In this document: positions 1 through 8,097 of the stretch, in pieces | How positions within the stretch are numbered: position 1 is the stretch's first letter | Layout: every line of letters begins with the position of its first letter | From: Holdemanella porci | GTDB lineage: Bacteria > Bacillota_I > Bacilli_A > Erysipelotrichales > Erysipelotrichaceae | Reading direction: 5' to 3' | DNA: 64,000 nucleotides | Assembly: GCF_009696075.1 (NCBI RefSeq) | Contig: NZ_VUMR01000004.1 | Coordinates: forward strand, 1-64,000 | Notes under the pieces: generated by a model | The model's database searches: none | Seen by the model: only the letters and a program-made list of their open reading frames with translations | Told to the model about the DNA's origin: nothing | Translations under genes and position numbers: made by a program

Positions 1-30
1 GGTTTAAATATTTTGAAGTTCTTGTCATAA
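1..30 (-). CDS. 5' end of a gene cut by the window edge, possibly a second tnpB-like gene
   Basis: An ATG at 28-30 on the minus strand opens a frame (M-T-R-T-S-K-Y-L-N) that leaves the window. The 53 bases upstream (48-100) match the tnpB leader (1677-1729) at about 41 positions by hand count, and the distance to the ATG is the same in both. The first residues (MTRT) resemble the start of TnpB (MYRT). I infer a second gene of the same family or a leader captured from it. Too little is visible to name a product. Confidence 0.3.
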
Positions 31-227
31 GTGTAGTCTCTCTTTCGTTTACACCTATACAATAAATCTTAAATAGACATCATTAATGTCAGTTATATTA
101 ACAAATCACCAATGTATCTGTTAAGCCATGTTTTTTATAAGTTTCATACGTGTCACCTCAAAAAGTATTATATAATGAACTACCGATGCATACAAATAAA
201 TCAATATACGTGGTTTCTTATATAGTG

Positions 228-315
228 TTCTGAGATCAGAATACCTATAAAAGCCTGTCCACAAGGCTTCTATCCGATTGCTTTATACAAGCTATTCGGA
301 ATACGTATTTTTTAT
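228..315 (-). ncRNA. candidate omega-RNA (reRNA) / right-end structure of the IS605-like element
   Basis: Directly after the tnpB stop codon, in its transcription direction, lie three hairpins. The first is CCGA 274-277 with TCGG 296-299, enclosing an inner GCTT/AAGC stem. The second is AAGCC 251-255 with GGCTT 265-269. The third is TTCTG 228-232 with CAGAA 237-241. TnpB proteins use a guide RNA encoded at the 3' end of tnpB and the transposon right end, so position and structure fit. The exact transposon end and guide segment cannot be set from this copy alone. Confidence 0.45.
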
Positions 316-1659
316 TTATGCAGCTATCGTAATTTTATGAACATTCTGCAAGCTTTTCGCTGTAAAAGGCGTTTCATCAAAGTGCTTACGATATATATTT
401 GCAGCACCATTGACATCTGCATTCAACAATGTACCATCAGCTGAGTTATACAATCCTCGATGGATACGTTTCCCTGAAAACGAATACTTCTTGTTTTCTT
501 CTTCAGGATTGTAAGTAGGAATCGCATCTTTATCTAGGTAGCTTGCTTTTGAAGTATAACTTTCTTCCTGAAGAATAACTTGAATACCTTCAGCCTCAGC
601 TTTGTACTGAATCAAGTTATACAAACGATTGTGAGGTATCTGAACAAAGTTTTGCGCATTAGTTTTACCAATATTACATTCTTGTTTCCAACCATTGTTA
701 GAGCCTAGAACCAGTATTCCAATTTTGTGTTCGACACAGTAATTGATGATGTATCTAGATACTTTATGTAGATAATCCAGCATCCATAACGAGCGCTTCT
801 TCCAAAGGGTTGTTAGCTGCTTTGAATCCTCATGCTTGGAAGTCTTGTACATCTTGTCAAGATGACTGTTAAGTTGGGAAGCTCGTTTATTGAACCATTG
901 ATTCTTGGATTTGATAATTCTGCCATTGATAACCAGACTTTCGTCTTCGGTTACTAGAGTTACAAGATTGTCGACACCTGGATCAATGGATGCTACCTTT
1001 GTTAAGGTATGTGGTTTTTCTTTGGTAAACTGTTCATAAACAATTTCCAGTTTGTACGTGTCGTAAAAAGGTACAATACGGACTTCTTTCAGCTTTTTAA
1101 AATCAGCTGGAAGATAAGGAACATCCAACAGAATTCCATCTTTTCTTGTGATATAAGGAAGTTTCAGTTTGTATGTTTCATCTGTTTGTTTATATAGCAC
1201 ACATCCCTGATTTGTCAGTACAAATGTCTTTCTATCTGCTTTACAATACTTTGTAAGCTTTGGCTTTCCTGTAAAGGCAGACGGATTCTCTTTGTACTGT
1301 TTTAGACTTTCGAAATAGGACTTAATATCATGAACCACAGCCTTTAAACAATGCTGAACACTCTGGTTAGGGAGATTTCTTTTGTAAAGTTCAGATTTGT
1401 GCTTACGAATGATTTTTTCAAGCTTGGCATATCCCACAGTCATCTGTGTTCTAGGAATCATCTCGCGAGTCAAAGAGCGCACTTCTTTTTCATTCTCAGA
1501 GTACATTCCTTCTGATTTGCCAGATGAAGAAACAAGCTGGCGTTCAATGAACAAGGCTGAGTTGTAAATAGCCTTCGATGTTAGACTCCATTCGTCAAAA
1601 TAAGAACAGATTACACTTTGTTTCTTTCTATTTAGGATTACGCTTTGGGTTCTATACAT
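316..1659 (-). CDS. tnpB: TnpB, IS605 OrfB-family RNA-guided nuclease (variant active site)
   Basis: A 447-residue protein of the IS200/IS605 accessory family, whose members are RNA-guided DNA nucleases that help retain the transposon. The first RuvC aspartate is visible in ASIDPGVDN and the third in NADVNGAANI near the C terminus. The usual RuvC-II glutamate (normally a hydrophobic run then E-D-L) is not at its standard place: the segment reads ILVLGSNNGWKQE. The CxxC zinc finger of ordinary TnpB is also absent, with EESYTSKASYLD in its place. This matches a divergent TnpB subfamily I recall from Firmicutes. The start follows a strong AAGGAGGTG. The gene is divergent from the tnpA-like gene at 1827. 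Confidence 0.85.
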   Translation of the reverse strand: MYRTQSVILNRKKQSVICSYFDEWSLTSKAIYNSALFIERQLVSSSGKSEGMYSENEKEVRSLTREMIPRTQMTVGYAKLEKIIRKHKSELYKRNLPNQSVQHCLKAVVHDIKSYFESLKQYKENPSAFTGKPKLTKYCKADRKTFVLTNQGCVLYKQTDETYKLKLPYITRKDGILLDVPYLPADFKKLKEVRIVPFYDTYKLEIVYEQFTKEKPHTLTKVASIDPGVDNLVTLVTEDESLVINGRIIKSKNQWFNKRASQLNSHLDKMYKTSKHEDSKQLTTLWKKRSLWMLDYLHKVSRYIINYCVEHKIGILVLGSNNGWKQECNIGKTNAQNFVQIPHNRLYNLIQYKAEAEGIQVILQEESYTSKASYLDKDAIPTYNPEEENKKYSFSGKRIHRGLYNSADGTLLNADVNGAANIYRKHFDETPFTAKSLQNVHKITIAA

Positions 1660-1826: not shown

Positions 1827-2267
1827 GTGATAACCATTACTCCTAAAGTCAATGGAATGTACAGAAGCTCATACTCTGTATATCTTCTTCAATATCACAT
1901 TGTGACAAAATACAGAAATCCTGTATTGCAAGGAAGCGTAAAAACAAGTGTGTACAAAACAATCGAAGATATGCTTGAAATGTTTAATTGCATAATCAAA
2001 GAAGTCAATGGAAAAGAAGATTGCATGTATCTGCTTATTGAAACTCTATCAGACATCAAATTACACAGGCTGATACAAACATTAAAAACAAGAAGTGCTC
2101 GCTTTGCACGAAGAGATTACCCTGATACAGTAGATAAATACTACTGGAAAAGCTACTTCTGGAACAACGCATATTTTGTTTCAACCGTATCCGAAAATAC
2201 ATTAGCGAACTTCGAAACTTATATACGTAAACAGGGAATGAAAAGCAAAAACAGATTAATTAAATAA
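1827..2267 (+). CDS. IS200/IS605 TnpA-like protein lacking the HUH histidines
   Basis: The fold is recognisable as the Y1 single-strand transposase of IS200/IS605: YSVYLLQYHIV-TKYR at the N terminus and YFVSTVSENTLANFETYIRKQ with the catalytic-type Tyr near the C terminus. The HUH motif (D-H-x-H-L-L) reads D-C-M-Y-L-L, so both metal-binding histidines are replaced. The N-terminal strand is also about two residues shorter than in family members. The annotated start is a GTG at 1827. The best ribosome site, GAGGTG at 1824-1829, overlaps that GTG, so an ATT start at 1836 or the ATG at 1857 are alternatives. The protein is probably inactive for cleavage or repurposed. Confidence 0.7.
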   Translation: MITITPKVNGMYRSSYSVYLLQYHIVTKYRNPVLQGSVKTSVYKTIEDMLEMFNCIIKEVNGKEDCMYLLIETLSDIKLHRLIQTLKTRSARFARRDYPDTVDKYYWKSYFWNNAYFVSTVSENTLANFETYIRKQGMKSKNRLIK

Positions 2268-2337: not shown

Positions 2338-2365
2338 CTTAATTCATAGAACACAAGGAGATTTT

Positions 2366-4108
2366 ATGTTAATTTCAACAGAAAGCTTAAAAAAGAATAT
2401 AAATGACAAATGCATTTTAAAAGATGTGAGTTTTACAATAGAAGATACGGATAAAATTGCGTTGATTGGAGTCAATGGTACAGGTAAAAGTACTTTATTA
2501 AAGATACTTGCAGGTATTGAAAATTATGATTCAGGAATCATTATTAAAAAGAATGGAATCAAGATTCATTATTTACCTCAAAATCCAGAATTTAAAACAG
2601 ATTGTGTATGGGATGAAATTCAATTGGTCAATTCTAAAAATGAGCATCCTGTAGCAGAGTTTGAATTAAAATCGATTCTAACGAAACTGGGTATTACAGA
2701 TTATCAAAGCGCCATGTCAAATATGTCAGGTGGACAAAGAAAAAGAGTGGCTCTTGCCTTAGCACTATGCACAAGTTGTGATTTGTTGCTTTTGGATGAA
2801 CCGACAAACCATTTGGATAACGATATGGTTGAATGGTTGGAAAATTATTTGATTCGTTCAAAGAGTGCAATATTTATGGTCACACACGATCGTTATTTTT
2901 TAGATCGTGTTTGTACAAAAATGATTGAATTGGATCAAGGCGACTTATATATTCATAATGGAAATTATGAAGTGTATTTAGAAAATAAGGAAACACGTAT
3001 TGAACAAGAAAAATTAGCAGCCCATAAACACAAGAACTTATATAAAAAGGAATTAGAGTGGGTTAGAGCGGGCGTACAGGCGCGTGGTACAAAATCGAAT
3101 AGCCGACTTCAAAGGTTTGAAGAATTGCGTCAGAAACGTTTTAAACAGCAAGAAGAGTCATTAAAAATAAATGCGACTATGCAACGATTGGGGAATAAAA
3201 CAATTGAATGTATGAATTTAGGATTTAATTATCCAGAAAAGTCATTATTTCATGATTTTAACTATGTATTATTACGACAAGACCGAATAGGTATCATTGG
3301 AGAGAATGGATGTGGAAAATCTACATTGTTAGATGTTATTGCAGGGTTGAAACAACCAACCTATGGAACCATTGAATATGGAACCACAGTTAAAATTGGA
3401 TATTTCAGACAAGCGGATCAAGGTGTCGATCTAAATATGCGTGTTATTGATTATATTGAAGAAGTTTCTAAAGTCATTGAATACGATCGTATGACACTAA
3501 GCGCTTCGCAAATGCTTGAAAGATTTTTATTTCCAAGAAATATGCACTATACCACGCTATCAAGATTATCCGGTGGAGAAAGAAGAAGACTATATCTATT
3601 AAGAGTTTTGATGCAAGAACCAAATATCCTGTTATTGGATGAGCCAACAAATGATTTGGATATTTTGACATTAGACGTATTAGAAGATTATTTAGATGAT
3701 TTTCAAGGAGCCATTATTACTGTAAGCCATGACCGATATTTTTTGGATCGTGTTGTGGATAAAGTGTTTGTCCATCAAGAAGATGGTACTTTTAAACAGT
3801 ATAGTGGTGGATATAGTGATTATTTAGTGAAATCAAAAGATGAGAATAAGAAGGTTGTTGTTCAAAAGCCGATTGAAAAGAAGAAAAAATCTCAATTATC
3901 TTATATGGAAAAAAAGGAATTGGAGCAACTACCTGAGAAAATGGAATTATTAGAAAGTGAAATGGAAGCTTTAGACCATCAGATGAATGAGTGTCAAAGT
4001 GATTTTGCGAAATTAAAAGAATTAAGTGATTTGAGAACGCAGAAAGAAGAAGAACTTGAAACTTTAACAAATCGTTGGATGGAATTAGAGGAAAAAAGGG
4101 AAGGATAA
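2366..4108 (+). CDS. uup: ABC-F family ATPase, Uup type
   Basis: A 580-residue soluble protein with two ABC cassettes and no membrane segments. Visible motifs are Walker A GVNGTGKST near residue 35, signature MSGGQRKR near 120, Walker B LLLLDEPTN near 145, the ABC-F interdomain linker with ARGTKSNSRL near 235, a second Walker A GENGCGKST near 312, signature LSGGERRR near 403, and a charged C-terminal coiled coil from about 515. The linker and coiled coil resemble Uup more than EttA. ABC-F proteins act on the ribosome and are not exporters. The ATG at 2366 was chosen because AAGGAG precedes it; a longer frame from 2297 has no ribosome site. The EamA transporter follows after 7 nt. Confidence 0.85.
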   Translation: MLISTESLKKNINDKCILKDVSFTIEDTDKIALIGVNGTGKSTLLKILAGIENYDSGIIIKKNGIKIHYLPQNPEFKTDCVWDEIQLVNSKNEHPVAEFELKSILTKLGITDYQSAMSNMSGGQRKRVALALALCTSCDLLLLDEPTNHLDNDMVEWLENYLIRSKSAIFMVTHDRYFLDRVCTKMIELDQGDLYIHNGNYEVYLENKETRIEQEKLAAHKHKNLYKKELEWVRAGVQARGTKSNSRLQRFEELRQKRFKQQEESLKINATMQRLGNKTIECMNLGFNYPEKSLFHDFNYVLLRQDRIGIIGENGCGKSTLLDVIAGLKQPTYGTIEYGTTVKIGYFRQADQGVDLNMRVIDYIEEVSKVIEYDRMTLSASQMLERFLFPRNMHYTTLSRLSGGERRRLYLLRVLMQEPNILLLDEPTNDLDILTLDVLEDYLDDFQGAIITVSHDRYFLDRVVDKVFVHQEDGTFKQYSGGYSDYLVKSKDENKKVVVQKPIEKKKKSQLSYMEKKELEQLPEKMELLESEMEALDHQMNECQSDFAKLKELSDLRTQKEEELETLTNRWMELEEKREG

Positions 4109-4115
4109 GTTTTAA

Positions 4116-5042
4116 TTGGACATGGAGAACAGGGAATTTTTTAAAAAGCCATTACATGTATTTTTACTAGCCATGCTATGTTGTACACTATGGGGAAGTG
4201 CGGCTCCCTTTATTAAATGGGGATATCAATTATTTAACATTAAAGGCGTACCAAGCATATTGATGTTTGCGGGCATTCGCTTTGCGTTAGCCGGACTTTT
4301 AGTCATATTATTTGGCTCTTTCTTACAGAAAAAAGTATTAGTCGCAAAAAAAGAAAACATGCAAGGCATATGTACATTAGCTGTATTTCAAACGGCTGGA
4401 CAATACTTTTTCTACTATATAGGACTTTCACATACATCGGGCGTAAATGGTTCGATTATTACCGGTACCAGTGCCTTTATATCTTTATTAGTAGCCAGTT
4501 TGATCTTTCATTATGAAAAGCTGACACTAAGGAAAACATTGGGATGTTTTATCGGATTCTTAGGTATTTTATTTATGAATATGAGTGGGGCTAGTGCAAA
4601 CTTTTCATTTATAGGTGAAGGCTTTGTGTTGATGTCACAATTTTGTGGATCTATATCGGCTGCCTTTATTAAGAAGTTCACACAACATCAAAATGCCGTC
4701 CTGTTAAGTGGATATCAATTCTCTCTAGGAGGTATTCTCTTAGCTATAATAGGCTATTTAATGGGAGGGCACATTACATTTGGATTTAATCTAGGCCTTC
4801 TTGTATTGATTCACTTAGCTCTTGTATCTGCTATCGCCTATACGATTTGGGGATTGTTATTATCTGTAAATCCTGTTAGTAAGATTGGTGTCTATATGTG
4901 CGTAACACCTATCATCGGTGTGATTTTATCAAGTGTTGTATTACATGAATCCAATCAGGCATTCCAACCATCAAGTTTAATTGCATTGTTACTTGTAAGT
5001 TTAAGTGTATTTTTAGTCAATAAAGAAACACAGACAGATTAA
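4116..5042 (+). CDS. EamA/DMT family transporter
   Basis: An integral membrane protein of about 308 residues with ten hydrophobic segments in two similar halves, typical of the drug/metabolite transporter superfamily. The N-terminal CTLWGSAAPFIKWG matches the usual start of an EamA repeat. The substrate cannot be read from the sequence. Translation may begin at TTG 4116 or ATG 4122, and AAGGAT at 4101-4106 fits the TTG better. It is probably cotranscribed with the ABC-F gene and ends at a terminator overlapping its stop codon. Confidence 0.8.
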   Translation: MDMENREFFKKPLHVFLLAMLCCTLWGSAAPFIKWGYQLFNIKGVPSILMFAGIRFALAGLLVILFGSFLQKKVLVAKKENMQGICTLAVFQTAGQYFFYYIGLSHTSGVNGSIITGTSAFISLLVASLIFHYEKLTLRKTLGCFIGFLGILFMNMSGASANFSFIGEGFVLMSQFCGSISAAFIKKFTQHQNAVLLSGYQFSLGGILLAIIGYLMGGHITFGFNLGLLVLIHLALVSAIAYTIWGLLLSVNPVSKIGVYMCVTPIIGVILSSVVLHESNQAFQPSSLIALLLVSLSVFLVNKETQTD

Positions 5043-5055
5043 GTTCTGTCTTTTT
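5032..5055 (+). terminator. rho-independent terminator of the EamA gene
   Basis: AGACAGA 5032-5038 pairs with TCTGTCT 5045-5051, followed by T-rich sequence. The stop codon TAA lies in the loop. Confidence 0.8.
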
Positions 5056-5063
5056 CTTTGCCT

Positions 5064-5092
5064 AAAAAAGATCCTAGGCTTATCTAGGATCT
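5064..5092 (-). terminator. terminator of the serC-serA-PHP operon
   Basis: AGATCCTAG 5070-5078 pairs with CTAGGATCT 5084-5092. Read on the minus strand the stem is followed by a run of six T. The stem contains the last codons and stop of the PHP gene. Confidence 0.8.
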
Positions 5093-5856
5093 AATAATTC
5101 AAAGCAGCGCCCCACATCGTTAGGATAATGAGCATCACTTGCAGTAACAATTTGTACATTATTTTCTTTTAGGATATTTCTAAAATCAGCATTTAAGCCA
5201 ATATCAGGATGATGATATGAATAATGAGCTTTAGTGTTGTCTTCCATTTTAATGTTGTATTCATTTGCCAGACGAGCGATATGATGGTAGGTAGGATGTA
5301 AATCGTAGCCTGGAACAATCGAATACAATTTGATCACATCTGGATGACCCACTTGATCAAAGAGATTGGATTGGATTAGTTTTTCAATAGCGTCATAATA
5401 GGACTTATAAATATTAGAAGGATCATTTTTGTTCCAAAGTAATTCTTTAGAAAAGGCATCCATATCATATAGATAACCATCTACAGAGTGCACACTGCCA
5501 ACTAGAAAGTCAAAATGGTAGTTTTTAAGAATGGAGGATAATAGACTTTCTGTTTCAGGCGTATAACAAACTTCAAGGCCAAAACGTACATCGATGTCAA
5601 AAGTTTCCTTTTTTAATGCTTCAATTAATTTTAAATAATCATCTATGGAGTTTTTTTGTTTCTTTAAAAACCACTCTTCTTGTAATTTAGATACTTCACA
5701 AACTCTTTTATAACAGTCTTTAAATTCAAAGAATCTATGTGTGTGATCTAATATTTGAAGATGAGTAATCCCTTTTTCTTTGGCAGCATCAATAAACTTA
5801 TGAACATATTCAATGCTTAAATCACCATTTTCTAAATGTGTATGTGCATCAATCAT
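5080..5856 (-). CDS. PHP-domain phosphatase (histidinol-phosphatase-like), candidate phosphoserine phosphatase
   Basis: A 258-residue PHP-superfamily metal hydrolase. Metal-ligand motifs are visible in order: DAHTH at residues 3-7, DHTH near 37, LEVCYTPE, GSVHSVD, GHPDVIK and ASDAH near the C terminus. The family includes HisK/HisJ-type histidinol phosphatases. No histidine genes are nearby. It is the third gene after serC and serA, 14 nt behind serA, in an operon that otherwise lacks the last step of serine synthesis. I therefore infer phosphoserine phosphatase activity. Histidinol phosphatase remains the homology-based alternative. Confidence 0.7.
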   Translation of the reverse strand: MIDAHTHLENGDLSIEYVHKFIDAAKEKGITHLQILDHTHRFFEFKDCYKRVCEVSKLQEEWFLKKQKNSIDDYLKLIEALKKETFDIDVRFGLEVCYTPETESLLSSILKNYHFDFLVGSVHSVDGYLYDMDAFSKELLWNKNDPSNIYKSYYDAIEKLIQSNLFDQVGHPDVIKLYSIVPGYDLHPTYHHIARLANEYNIKMEDNTKAHYSYHHPDIGLNADFRNILKENNVQIVTASDAHYPNDVGRCFELLDPR

Positions 5857-5870
5857 AGTACCATCCCATC

Positions 5871-7019
5871 CTATTTCTTATAAGTAGATACTCTAATCAT
5901 ACCATTGATTTTTTCGATTGGAGAAACATCAACTTCTGAATCTAAATCAATAATTGTATACGCAATATCTTTTTTAGATTTATTCATTAAGTTTTCAATA
6001 TTAGCATCCTTCAAAATATCTGTGATTTGAGAAATCATTTTAGGCTTATTTTCATGAATACAAGTGATTCTAAATGGTGAATTCATATCCATCTTCGCAT
6101 TTGGTAAATTGACAGAATTTGAAATATTTCCATAAGTTAAATAATCCATCAGTTCCTGAGCGGCTTTTACAGCACAATTCTCTTCACTCTCTTCGGTTGA
6201 AGCACCTAAGTGAGGAATTGCGATGACTTTATCATTTTGAATAACTTTTAAACTTGGAAAATCAGTCACATAAGATTCAACTTTGTTGCCATCTAATGCC
6301 ACCAATAGAGCATCTTCATCAACTAGGCCACCACGAGCAAAGTTTAATAATTTGACGCCATCTTTCATCTTGTCAAAACTGTCTTTATTGATAAAGTTTT
6401 TAGTTCCATCATTTAAAGGCACATGAATCGTAATAAAATCACATTGACGATATAAATCATCAATATTTGTGACATGATTTACATATCGAGATAAGTTCCA
6501 TGCGGCATCGACTGACATATATGGATCATATCCATAAACTTTCATACCAAATCGTAAGGCTAGATTGGCAACCTGGATACCAATGGCACCACAACCGATG
6601 ACACCTAGTGATTTACCGGTTAATTCATGTCCAGCATATTTCTTTTTTTGTTTTTCAACATCTTTTGCGATGTTCTCATTTTCTTTTTGCGTTTGGATCC
6701 ATTCAATACCATGATAAATATCACGACTTGCAAGTAACATACCCGCAAATACAAGTTCTTTTACGGCATTACTATTTGCGCCTGGAGTATTGAATACGGC
6801 AATCCCTTTTTTAGTACAAGTATCAATATCAATGTTGTTGACACCAGCACCTGCACGAGCGATGGCTTTAAGGTTGGCATTATATTCAATATCATGAAGA
6901 TTGGCACTACGAACTAAAATGGCATCTTCGTCTTCCATGTTTTCGTTTACTTCATAATCTGGCGTAAACTGATCTAAACCAATTTGCGCAATATTATTGT
7001 AGAGTTTTATTTTAGGCAT
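5871..7019 (-). CDS. serA: D-3-phosphoglycerate dehydrogenase
   Basis: A 382-residue enzyme catalysing NAD-dependent oxidation of 3-phosphoglycerate, the first step of serine synthesis. It shows the Rossmann motif GVIGCGAIGIQVA, the catalytic-region NFARGGLVDE and PHLGASTEE, and a C-terminal ACT domain from about residue 315, with no intervening ASB domain. The ACT domain suggests serine feedback. The ATG at 7019 is preceded by AGGAGA lying inside the end of serC, and the two genes overlap by 8 nt, so translation is probably coupled. A longer start at 7037 is less likely. Confidence 0.93.
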   Translation of the reverse strand: MPKIKLYNNIAQIGLDQFTPDYEVNENMEDEDAILVRSANLHDIEYNANLKAIARAGAGVNNIDIDTCTKKGIAVFNTPGANSNAVKELVFAGMLLASRDIYHGIEWIQTQKENENIAKDVEKQKKKYAGHELTGKSLGVIGCGAIGIQVANLALRFGMKVYGYDPYMSVDAAWNLSRYVNHVTNIDDLYRQCDFITIHVPLNDGTKNFINKDSFDKMKDGVKLLNFARGGLVDEDALLVALDGNKVESYVTDFPSLKVIQNDKVIAIPHLGASTEESEENCAVKAAQELMDYLTYGNISNSVNLPNAKMDMNSPFRITCIHENKPKMISQITDILKDANIENLMNKSKKDIAYTIIDLDSEVDVSPIEKINGMIRVSTYKK

Positions 7020-8097
7020 TATAATTCTCCTCTTCAAATTTCTTCATAAATGCAATTAGGGCTTCTACACCTTCAAGTGGCATGGCATTATAAATACTTG
7101 CACGCATACCACCAACGGTTCTGTGACCTTTAATATTTACAATTCCTGCTTCTTTTGCTTCTTTAACAAATTTAGTATCTAGATCTTTATCACCAGTCAC
7201 AAAAGGAACATTTGTATAAGAACGATCTTCAGGCACAACAGGATTTGAATAGAGTTTAGAAGCATCGATATAGTCATATAATAATTTAGCTTTTTGACGA
7301 TTGATCTTTTCCATGTTTTCCAATCCACCAATTTGTGTTTCTAGCCATTCAAGTACTAAACCACAAATATAGATGGCATAAGTAGGTGGCGTATTGAACA
7401 TAGAATCATTGTCAGCATATGTTTTGTAGTTTAACATGCTTGGTGTTTTTTCATCAGCTAAACCAATCAAGTCTTTTTTTATGATAACCACAGTTAAACC
7501 TGCAGGCCCCATATTCTTTTGGGCACCGGCAAAAATTAAATCATATTTAGAAACATCCGTTCTTTCACTTAAAATACAACTTGATAAATCTGCAACTAAT
7601 AACTTTCCTTCATGTGGAGGAAGTTCTTTATATTTAGTTCCATAGATTGTGTTGTTCTCACAAATATATACATAATCAGAATCTTCACTTAAATCTTCTT
7701 GTTTAATTTTAGGAATATACGTAAAGTTATCTTCTTCACTTGACGCGACTACATTTACTTTTCCAAATTTTTCATGTTCTTTTAAAGCTTTTTTTGTCCA
7801 TTGACCCGTATTGATCAAATCTACGTTATGTTTTTCTAAATTCAAAGGAATCATAGTAAATTGTAAAGAAGCACCTCCTTGTAAGAATAAAATTTCATAT
7901 TCATCAGGAATGTTCATCAATCTTTTTAATCTTGCTTTACAAGTATCTATAATATCCTGGAATTCACTGGAACGGTGGGACATCTCCATAACACTCATTC
8001 CACTATTATGAGCATCTAACATTTCGCTTGCAGCTTTTTTTAAGACCCATTCTGGTAAGCATGCGGGACCGGCACTAAAGTTATATACACGTGTCAT
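7012..8097 (-). CDS. serC: Phosphoserine aminotransferase
   Basis: A 361-residue class V PLP enzyme making phosphoserine from 3-phosphohydroxypyruvate and glutamate. It starts TRVYNFSAGPACLP, the family hallmark, and has the PLP lysine in AGAQKNMGPAGL near residue 193. RTVGGMRASIYNAMP near the C terminus is also typical. It is the first gene of the minus-strand serine operon, read from a strong promoter at 8149-8177. The leader holds an 18-nt inverted repeat just before the ribosome site. Confidence 0.95.
   Translation of the reverse strand: MTRVYNFSAGPACLPEWVLKKAASEMLDAHNSGMSVMEMSHRSSEFQDIIDTCKARLKRLMNIPDEYEILFLQGGASLQFTMIPLNLEKHNVDLINTGQWTKKALKEHEKFGKVNVVASSEEDNFTYIPKIKQEDLSEDSDYVYICENNTIYGTKYKELPPHEGKLLVADLSSCILSERTDVSKYDLIFAGAQKNMGPAGLTVVIIKKDLIGLADEKTPSMLNYKTYADNDSMFNTPPTYAIYICGLVLEWLETQIGGLENMEKINRQKAKLLYDYIDASKLYSNPVVPEDRSYTNVPFVTGDKDLDTKFVKEAKEAGIVNIKGHRTVGGMRASIYNAMPLEGVEALIAFMKKFEEENYNA

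Follow-up and report, generated by a model that had tools for sequence, protein, structure and literature searches.

The DNA analyzed here (the window) comprises the first 64,000 nucleotides of contig NZ_VUMR01000004.1 from the Holdemanella porci draft genome. At about positions 176 to 2345, it carries an insertion sequence (IS) element of the IS605 type in which tnpA and tnpB are divergent. A search of the organism's own genome recovered one copy of this element, which is inserted between an iadA-like gene and a gene for an ABC-F ATPase. The features of the region are as follows.

176 to 225, minus strand: right end (RE), in which ...GGTAGTTC is kept and the hairpin is lost
225 to 315, minus strand: putative omega-RNA region of tnpB, whose GGATAG and GCC...GGC stem-loop recur in relatives (compared by eye)
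316 to 1659, minus strand: tnpB, an intact frame of 447 amino acids that keeps RuvC residues D226, E365/E366, and D415
1836 to 2267, plus strand: tnpA-derived ORF for an IS605-type Y1 transposase (listed as an ORF from the GTG at 1827)
1836 to 1838, plus strand: ATT at the position of the ATG start, 6 nt past the Shine-Dalgarno sequence GAGGTG (1824 to 1829)
1902 to 1907, plus strand: two-residue deletion in strand 1 (HIV--TKYR), from alignments with relatives
2022 to 2030, plus strand: C66-M67-Y68 where the H-u-H metal ligands would be, with D65 kept at 2019 to 2021
2220 to 2234, plus strand: retained Y132...Q136, the catalytic tyrosine and the metal-site glutamine (residue roles from PMC5934647)
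2270 to 2345, minus strand: left end (LE), GGCAGAGTAC ... hairpin ... GGTGAATGCC, kept (z -3.6)
2346 to 2350, minus strand: TCTAT target pentamer adjoining LE, common to relatives
2366 to 4108, plus strand: ABC-F ATPase gene beside the insertion, used as the flank for the empty-site comparison described below

The Pfam Y1_Tnp domain (PF01797) spans the ORF listed at 1827 to 2267 from end to end (E 7e-27, residues 17 to 136 against 1 to 121 of 121), and the nearest solved sequences identified by phmmer are the TnpA proteins of ISDra2 and IS608. In every alignment, whether with ISDra2 TnpA by phmmer or with relatives, D65-C66-M67-Y68 falls on the D-H-u-H columns, such that the protein reads D-C-M-Y-L-L where the family has D-H-x-H-L-L. 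The Y---Q motif is present, with both Y132 and Q136 retained. The first-pass annotation of this DNA had reported that both HUH histidines are replaced while the catalytic tyrosine is kept, and phmmer and the alignments with relatives confirm this point. It had also asked whether an alignment might place suitable histidines elsewhere. Only two remain in the protein, H24 (in a conserved QYH) and H80; an alternative HUH motif built from these was rejected because neither can replace the lost pair, and the loss of the motif stands. H64, H66, D61, and Q131 are the metal ligands of IS608 TnpA, and Y127 is its attacking residue (PMC5934647). Judged from the alignments, two of the metal ligands are missing from the window TnpA, and from this loss single-strand nicking is predicted to be absent. 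Sequences that lack core motifs have been treated as probably nonfunctional (PMC6006769).

The same annotation held that the rest of the fold and the frame are kept, which proved to be only partly correct. The 147 codons contain no stop and no frameshift, and a structure model of modest confidence (pLDDT 76) retains the fold and is matched by Foldseek to the IS608 and ISDra2 TnpA proteins (TM 0.62 to 0.73 over the query). However, two strand-1 residues are absent after V26, and the near-invariant N-R-H that precedes strand 1 has become S-S-Y, with His replaced by Tyr. Among the 24 near-invariant columns (those conserved at 93% or more), six are altered, which is the highest fraction among 71 sequences. 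The end branch of the window TnpA has a length of 1.8 in one tree (median 0.22) and, at 2.2, is the longest in the other (median 0.23). The start codon is affected as well. The listed GTG lies inside the Shine-Dalgarno sequence, and alignment of ITPKVNGMYRSSYS with MRKNENGYYTNRHS and similar starts of relatives places the natural start at 1836, where the relatives have ATG and the window has ATT.

Only one end of the element retains its subterminal hairpin. RE, which was located by comparison with relatives and whose position agrees with the empty site described below, yields a hairpin of 0.0 kcal/mol, whereas the values for six relatives range from -6.8 to -12. The divergent tnpB with its RuvC residues is as expected for an IS605-type element. 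Nevertheless, 13 of its 57 near-invariant residues are changed, the highest count among 52 sequences.

The age of the insertion could be assessed with a congener, G001, whose ABC-F protein is 97% identical in amino acid sequence (dS 0.69). The corresponding intergenic region of G001 is uninterrupted and represents a clean empty site, wherein window positions 128 to 179 and 2346 to 5202 align to G001 positions 5097 to 5148 and 5144 to 8001. Together with the TCTAT adjoining LE, this site indicates that the element inserted 3′ to a short, fixed target and did not duplicate it. Given the empty site, the insertion probably occurred after the split from G001, the alternative being a precise excision in G001. 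Window positions 1 to 128 hold the terminal part of a high-copy repeat that is probably an IS; the 18 other matches to it lie mostly at contig ends. On our reading of the sequence, this repeat interrupts the start of the iadA-like gene, which is present in G001.

Neutral simulations were used to judge the open frames. An open tnpA frame persists with a probability of 0.30 at 0.05 substitutions per site and 0.10 at 0.1, and the value at 0.05 means that the intact frame is no argument against fairly recent decay. At 0.2 substitutions per site, the probability is already 0.014, and therefore the open frame is incompatible with neutral drift since the split, which corresponds to about 0.35 per site. 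If all six of the 24 losses were neutral (25% of residues changed), the probability of finding no stop would be about 0.06 for tnpA, and under comparable neutral divergence it is near 0 for tnpB. These low values imply that some of the divergence accumulated while a divergent lineage was still under selection, and that selection acted on the tnpB frame through most of its divergence.

The closest homologue of the window TnpA is 54% identical and has DHIHLL, and all homologues at 45 to 54% identity keep DHxH. Searches of phages, plasmids, viral contigs, GTDB contigs, and sampled genomes of the family, order, and class yielded nothing closer. The C-x-Y form is absent from all other genomes and homologues searched. 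Likewise, no orthologue of the window tnpA at a fixed locus was recovered from the sampled genomes, and the site in G001 is empty; the pattern expected of a domesticated gene is thus not observed.

We consider it likely that the window carries an ordinary single-copy IS605-type element whose tnpA decayed after insertion. A working transposase would have inserted the element between the iadA-like and ABC-F genes, with decay coming later. With the HUH pair gone, a divalent metal would not be held, and Y132 would be unable to cut single-stranded DNA, such that the element could not move itself. The ATT start would allow little TnpA protein to be made. Because the last jump would have needed a working transposase, whether its own or one acting in trans, the losses are best placed after it, and the simplest order would be insertion followed by loss of the histidines, the start codon, and the RE hairpin. 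The element thus offers a snapshot of element death, in which the catalytic pair, the start codon, and the RE hairpin are gone while both frames are open.

The element resembles the IS605-type elements of the IS200/IS605 family, with IS608 and ISDra2 TnpA as solved relatives, in its full-length Y1 fold, its divergent tnpA and tnpB, its subterminal LE hairpin, its catalytic tyrosine, and its metal-site glutamine, and it has the TCTAT flank of its relatives. It differs from IS605-type elements by the loss of the HUH histidines, the start codon, and the RE hairpin, and it is present as a single copy. Because the HUH motif is lacking, the element is classified as a decayed derivative of the IS200/IS605 family and not as an active member. 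The domesticated Y1 transposases TnpAREP/RAYT show that relatives of this protein are able to become resident genes, and they keep HUH and cut REP DNA (PMC8266576). In contrast, the window TnpA lacks HUH and still resides within an IS that carries tnpB.

A sister gene bears on this question. At locus L076 (the same as L010; genome G059) and locus L087 (genome G314), we found a TnpA-like gene with DYVH in which the Tyr and Gln are kept, at the following positions.

L076, 4989 to 5402: DYVH TnpA-like gene
L087, 2041 to 2454: DYVH TnpA-like gene

In the TnpA tree, this gene lies within the same small section as the window protein, and the first HUH histidine is lost in both. Unlike the window tnpA, it lacks tnpB and IS ends, holds a conserved position, begins with a normal ATG, keeps the second histidine, and shows strong purifying selection. 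In both genomes it is followed after 16 to 18 nt by a DUF3237 gene and then by an alpha-L-rhamnosidase gene. Between the two species, its dN is 0.12 and synonymous change is saturated (pS 0.84), which places the gene, by substitution rates, under strong purifying selection; dN/dS for the two downstream genes between the same species is 0.10. The Y is common to both copies at one locus and is thus older than their split, such that HUH was already altered throughout the time compared. Its fixed locus and purifying selection make this gene, detected in two genomes within a single genus, a credible candidate for a domesticated TnpA with an altered HUH. It resembles a Y1 transposase that became a resident host gene once one metal ligand had been lost, whereas the TnpAREP proteins keep HUH. 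In both genomes, two TATCCGAG sites lie upstream, 78 to 79 nt apart, and the motif occurs nowhere else in either locus; autoregulation would be a guess. A limited literature search, which is no proof of absence, did not find an HUH-less, retained IS200/IS605 TnpA. The main interest of this analysis resides in the sister gene, which provides a concrete protein, a gene neighborhood, and a candidate operator for the question of whether a TnpA can become a regulator; the window element itself belongs to a known family and is, on our reading, an unremarkable member in decay.

The sister gene also speaks against decay, since it shows that conservation of a TnpA with an altered HUH can occur, as do the uninterrupted 147 codons and the low probabilities of an open frame given above. 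The first-pass annotation had offered two readings, a fresh inactivation or a protein kept for DNA binding as a regulator of tnpB. The former is borne out by the missing metal site and by the accompanying loss of the start codon, the strand-1 residues, and the RE hairpin. The latter might take the form of a noncatalytic TnpA that binds the LE hairpin or the tnpA-tnpB intergenic region, thereby repressing tnpB or occupying the ends. The open tnpA frame and predicted fold, the retained LE hairpin, the intact tnpB frame, and purifying selection on the sister gene are all consistent with such a role. However, the ATT start and the absence of the RE hairpin, one of the two that the protein would bind, argue against it, as does the long end branch with its losses at conserved positions. 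The annotation had suggested a search for homologues with the same C-x-Y change, and none came to light, the closest all having DHxH. The sister gene, lacking tnpB, sets no precedent for tnpB regulation. We therefore regard retention as a regulator as unsupported for this copy and quite unlikely.

An older loss of the first histidine, shared with the sister gene (H to Y, and later Y to C), would instead imply an HUH-less branch mobilized in trans or by altered chemistry. An AU test run with the HUH columns left out did not reject a clade uniting the window TnpA with L076 and L087 (p 0.55), and the tree that joins them is better by 1.26 log units, although both lineages form long branches. In the unconstrained tree they do not form an exclusive group, and H to Y arises repeatedly elsewhere (L092, L017, and L004). 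Moreover, a dead TnpA would have needed help in trans for an insertion that G001 lacks, and the host genome has no closely related TnpA. An old, shared loss is accordingly quite improbable, and it is similarly improbable that a branch of IS605-type TnpA including the window protein and the sister gene gave up HUH catalysis and persists as DNA-binding regulators. Errors of assembly or binning could be suspected in a single sequence from a draft genome of 133 contigs that end in collapsed repeats. Several codon-level, frame-preserving differences together with a lost hairpin are atypical of assembly error, and we consider this explanation very improbable. Decay of tnpA after insertion remains our preferred account.

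Single-histidine losses are found in more distant copies, including DYVH in L092 as well as in the sister gene, NYIH in L017 and L110, and DYIH in L135. L110/L017 was considered as a second case of domestication. This reading was rejected, since the gene belongs to an IS remnant that has no tnpB and still carries a degraded left end.

L110, 4986 to 5405: NYIH TnpA in this remnant

The low pairwise dN/dS of L110/L017 indicates that such ratios for distant copies mostly reflect the time before inactivation. The window's own genome also contains another IS with tandem tnpA and tnpB, and three of its four copies (L002 to L004) carry DHIR or DYIR and not DHIH. These three sit at different sites (contigs C1, C57, and C45), and L003 begins with ATA. 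This distribution suggests that IS copies with a damaged HUH have spread, perhaps with the intact L001 type acting in trans.
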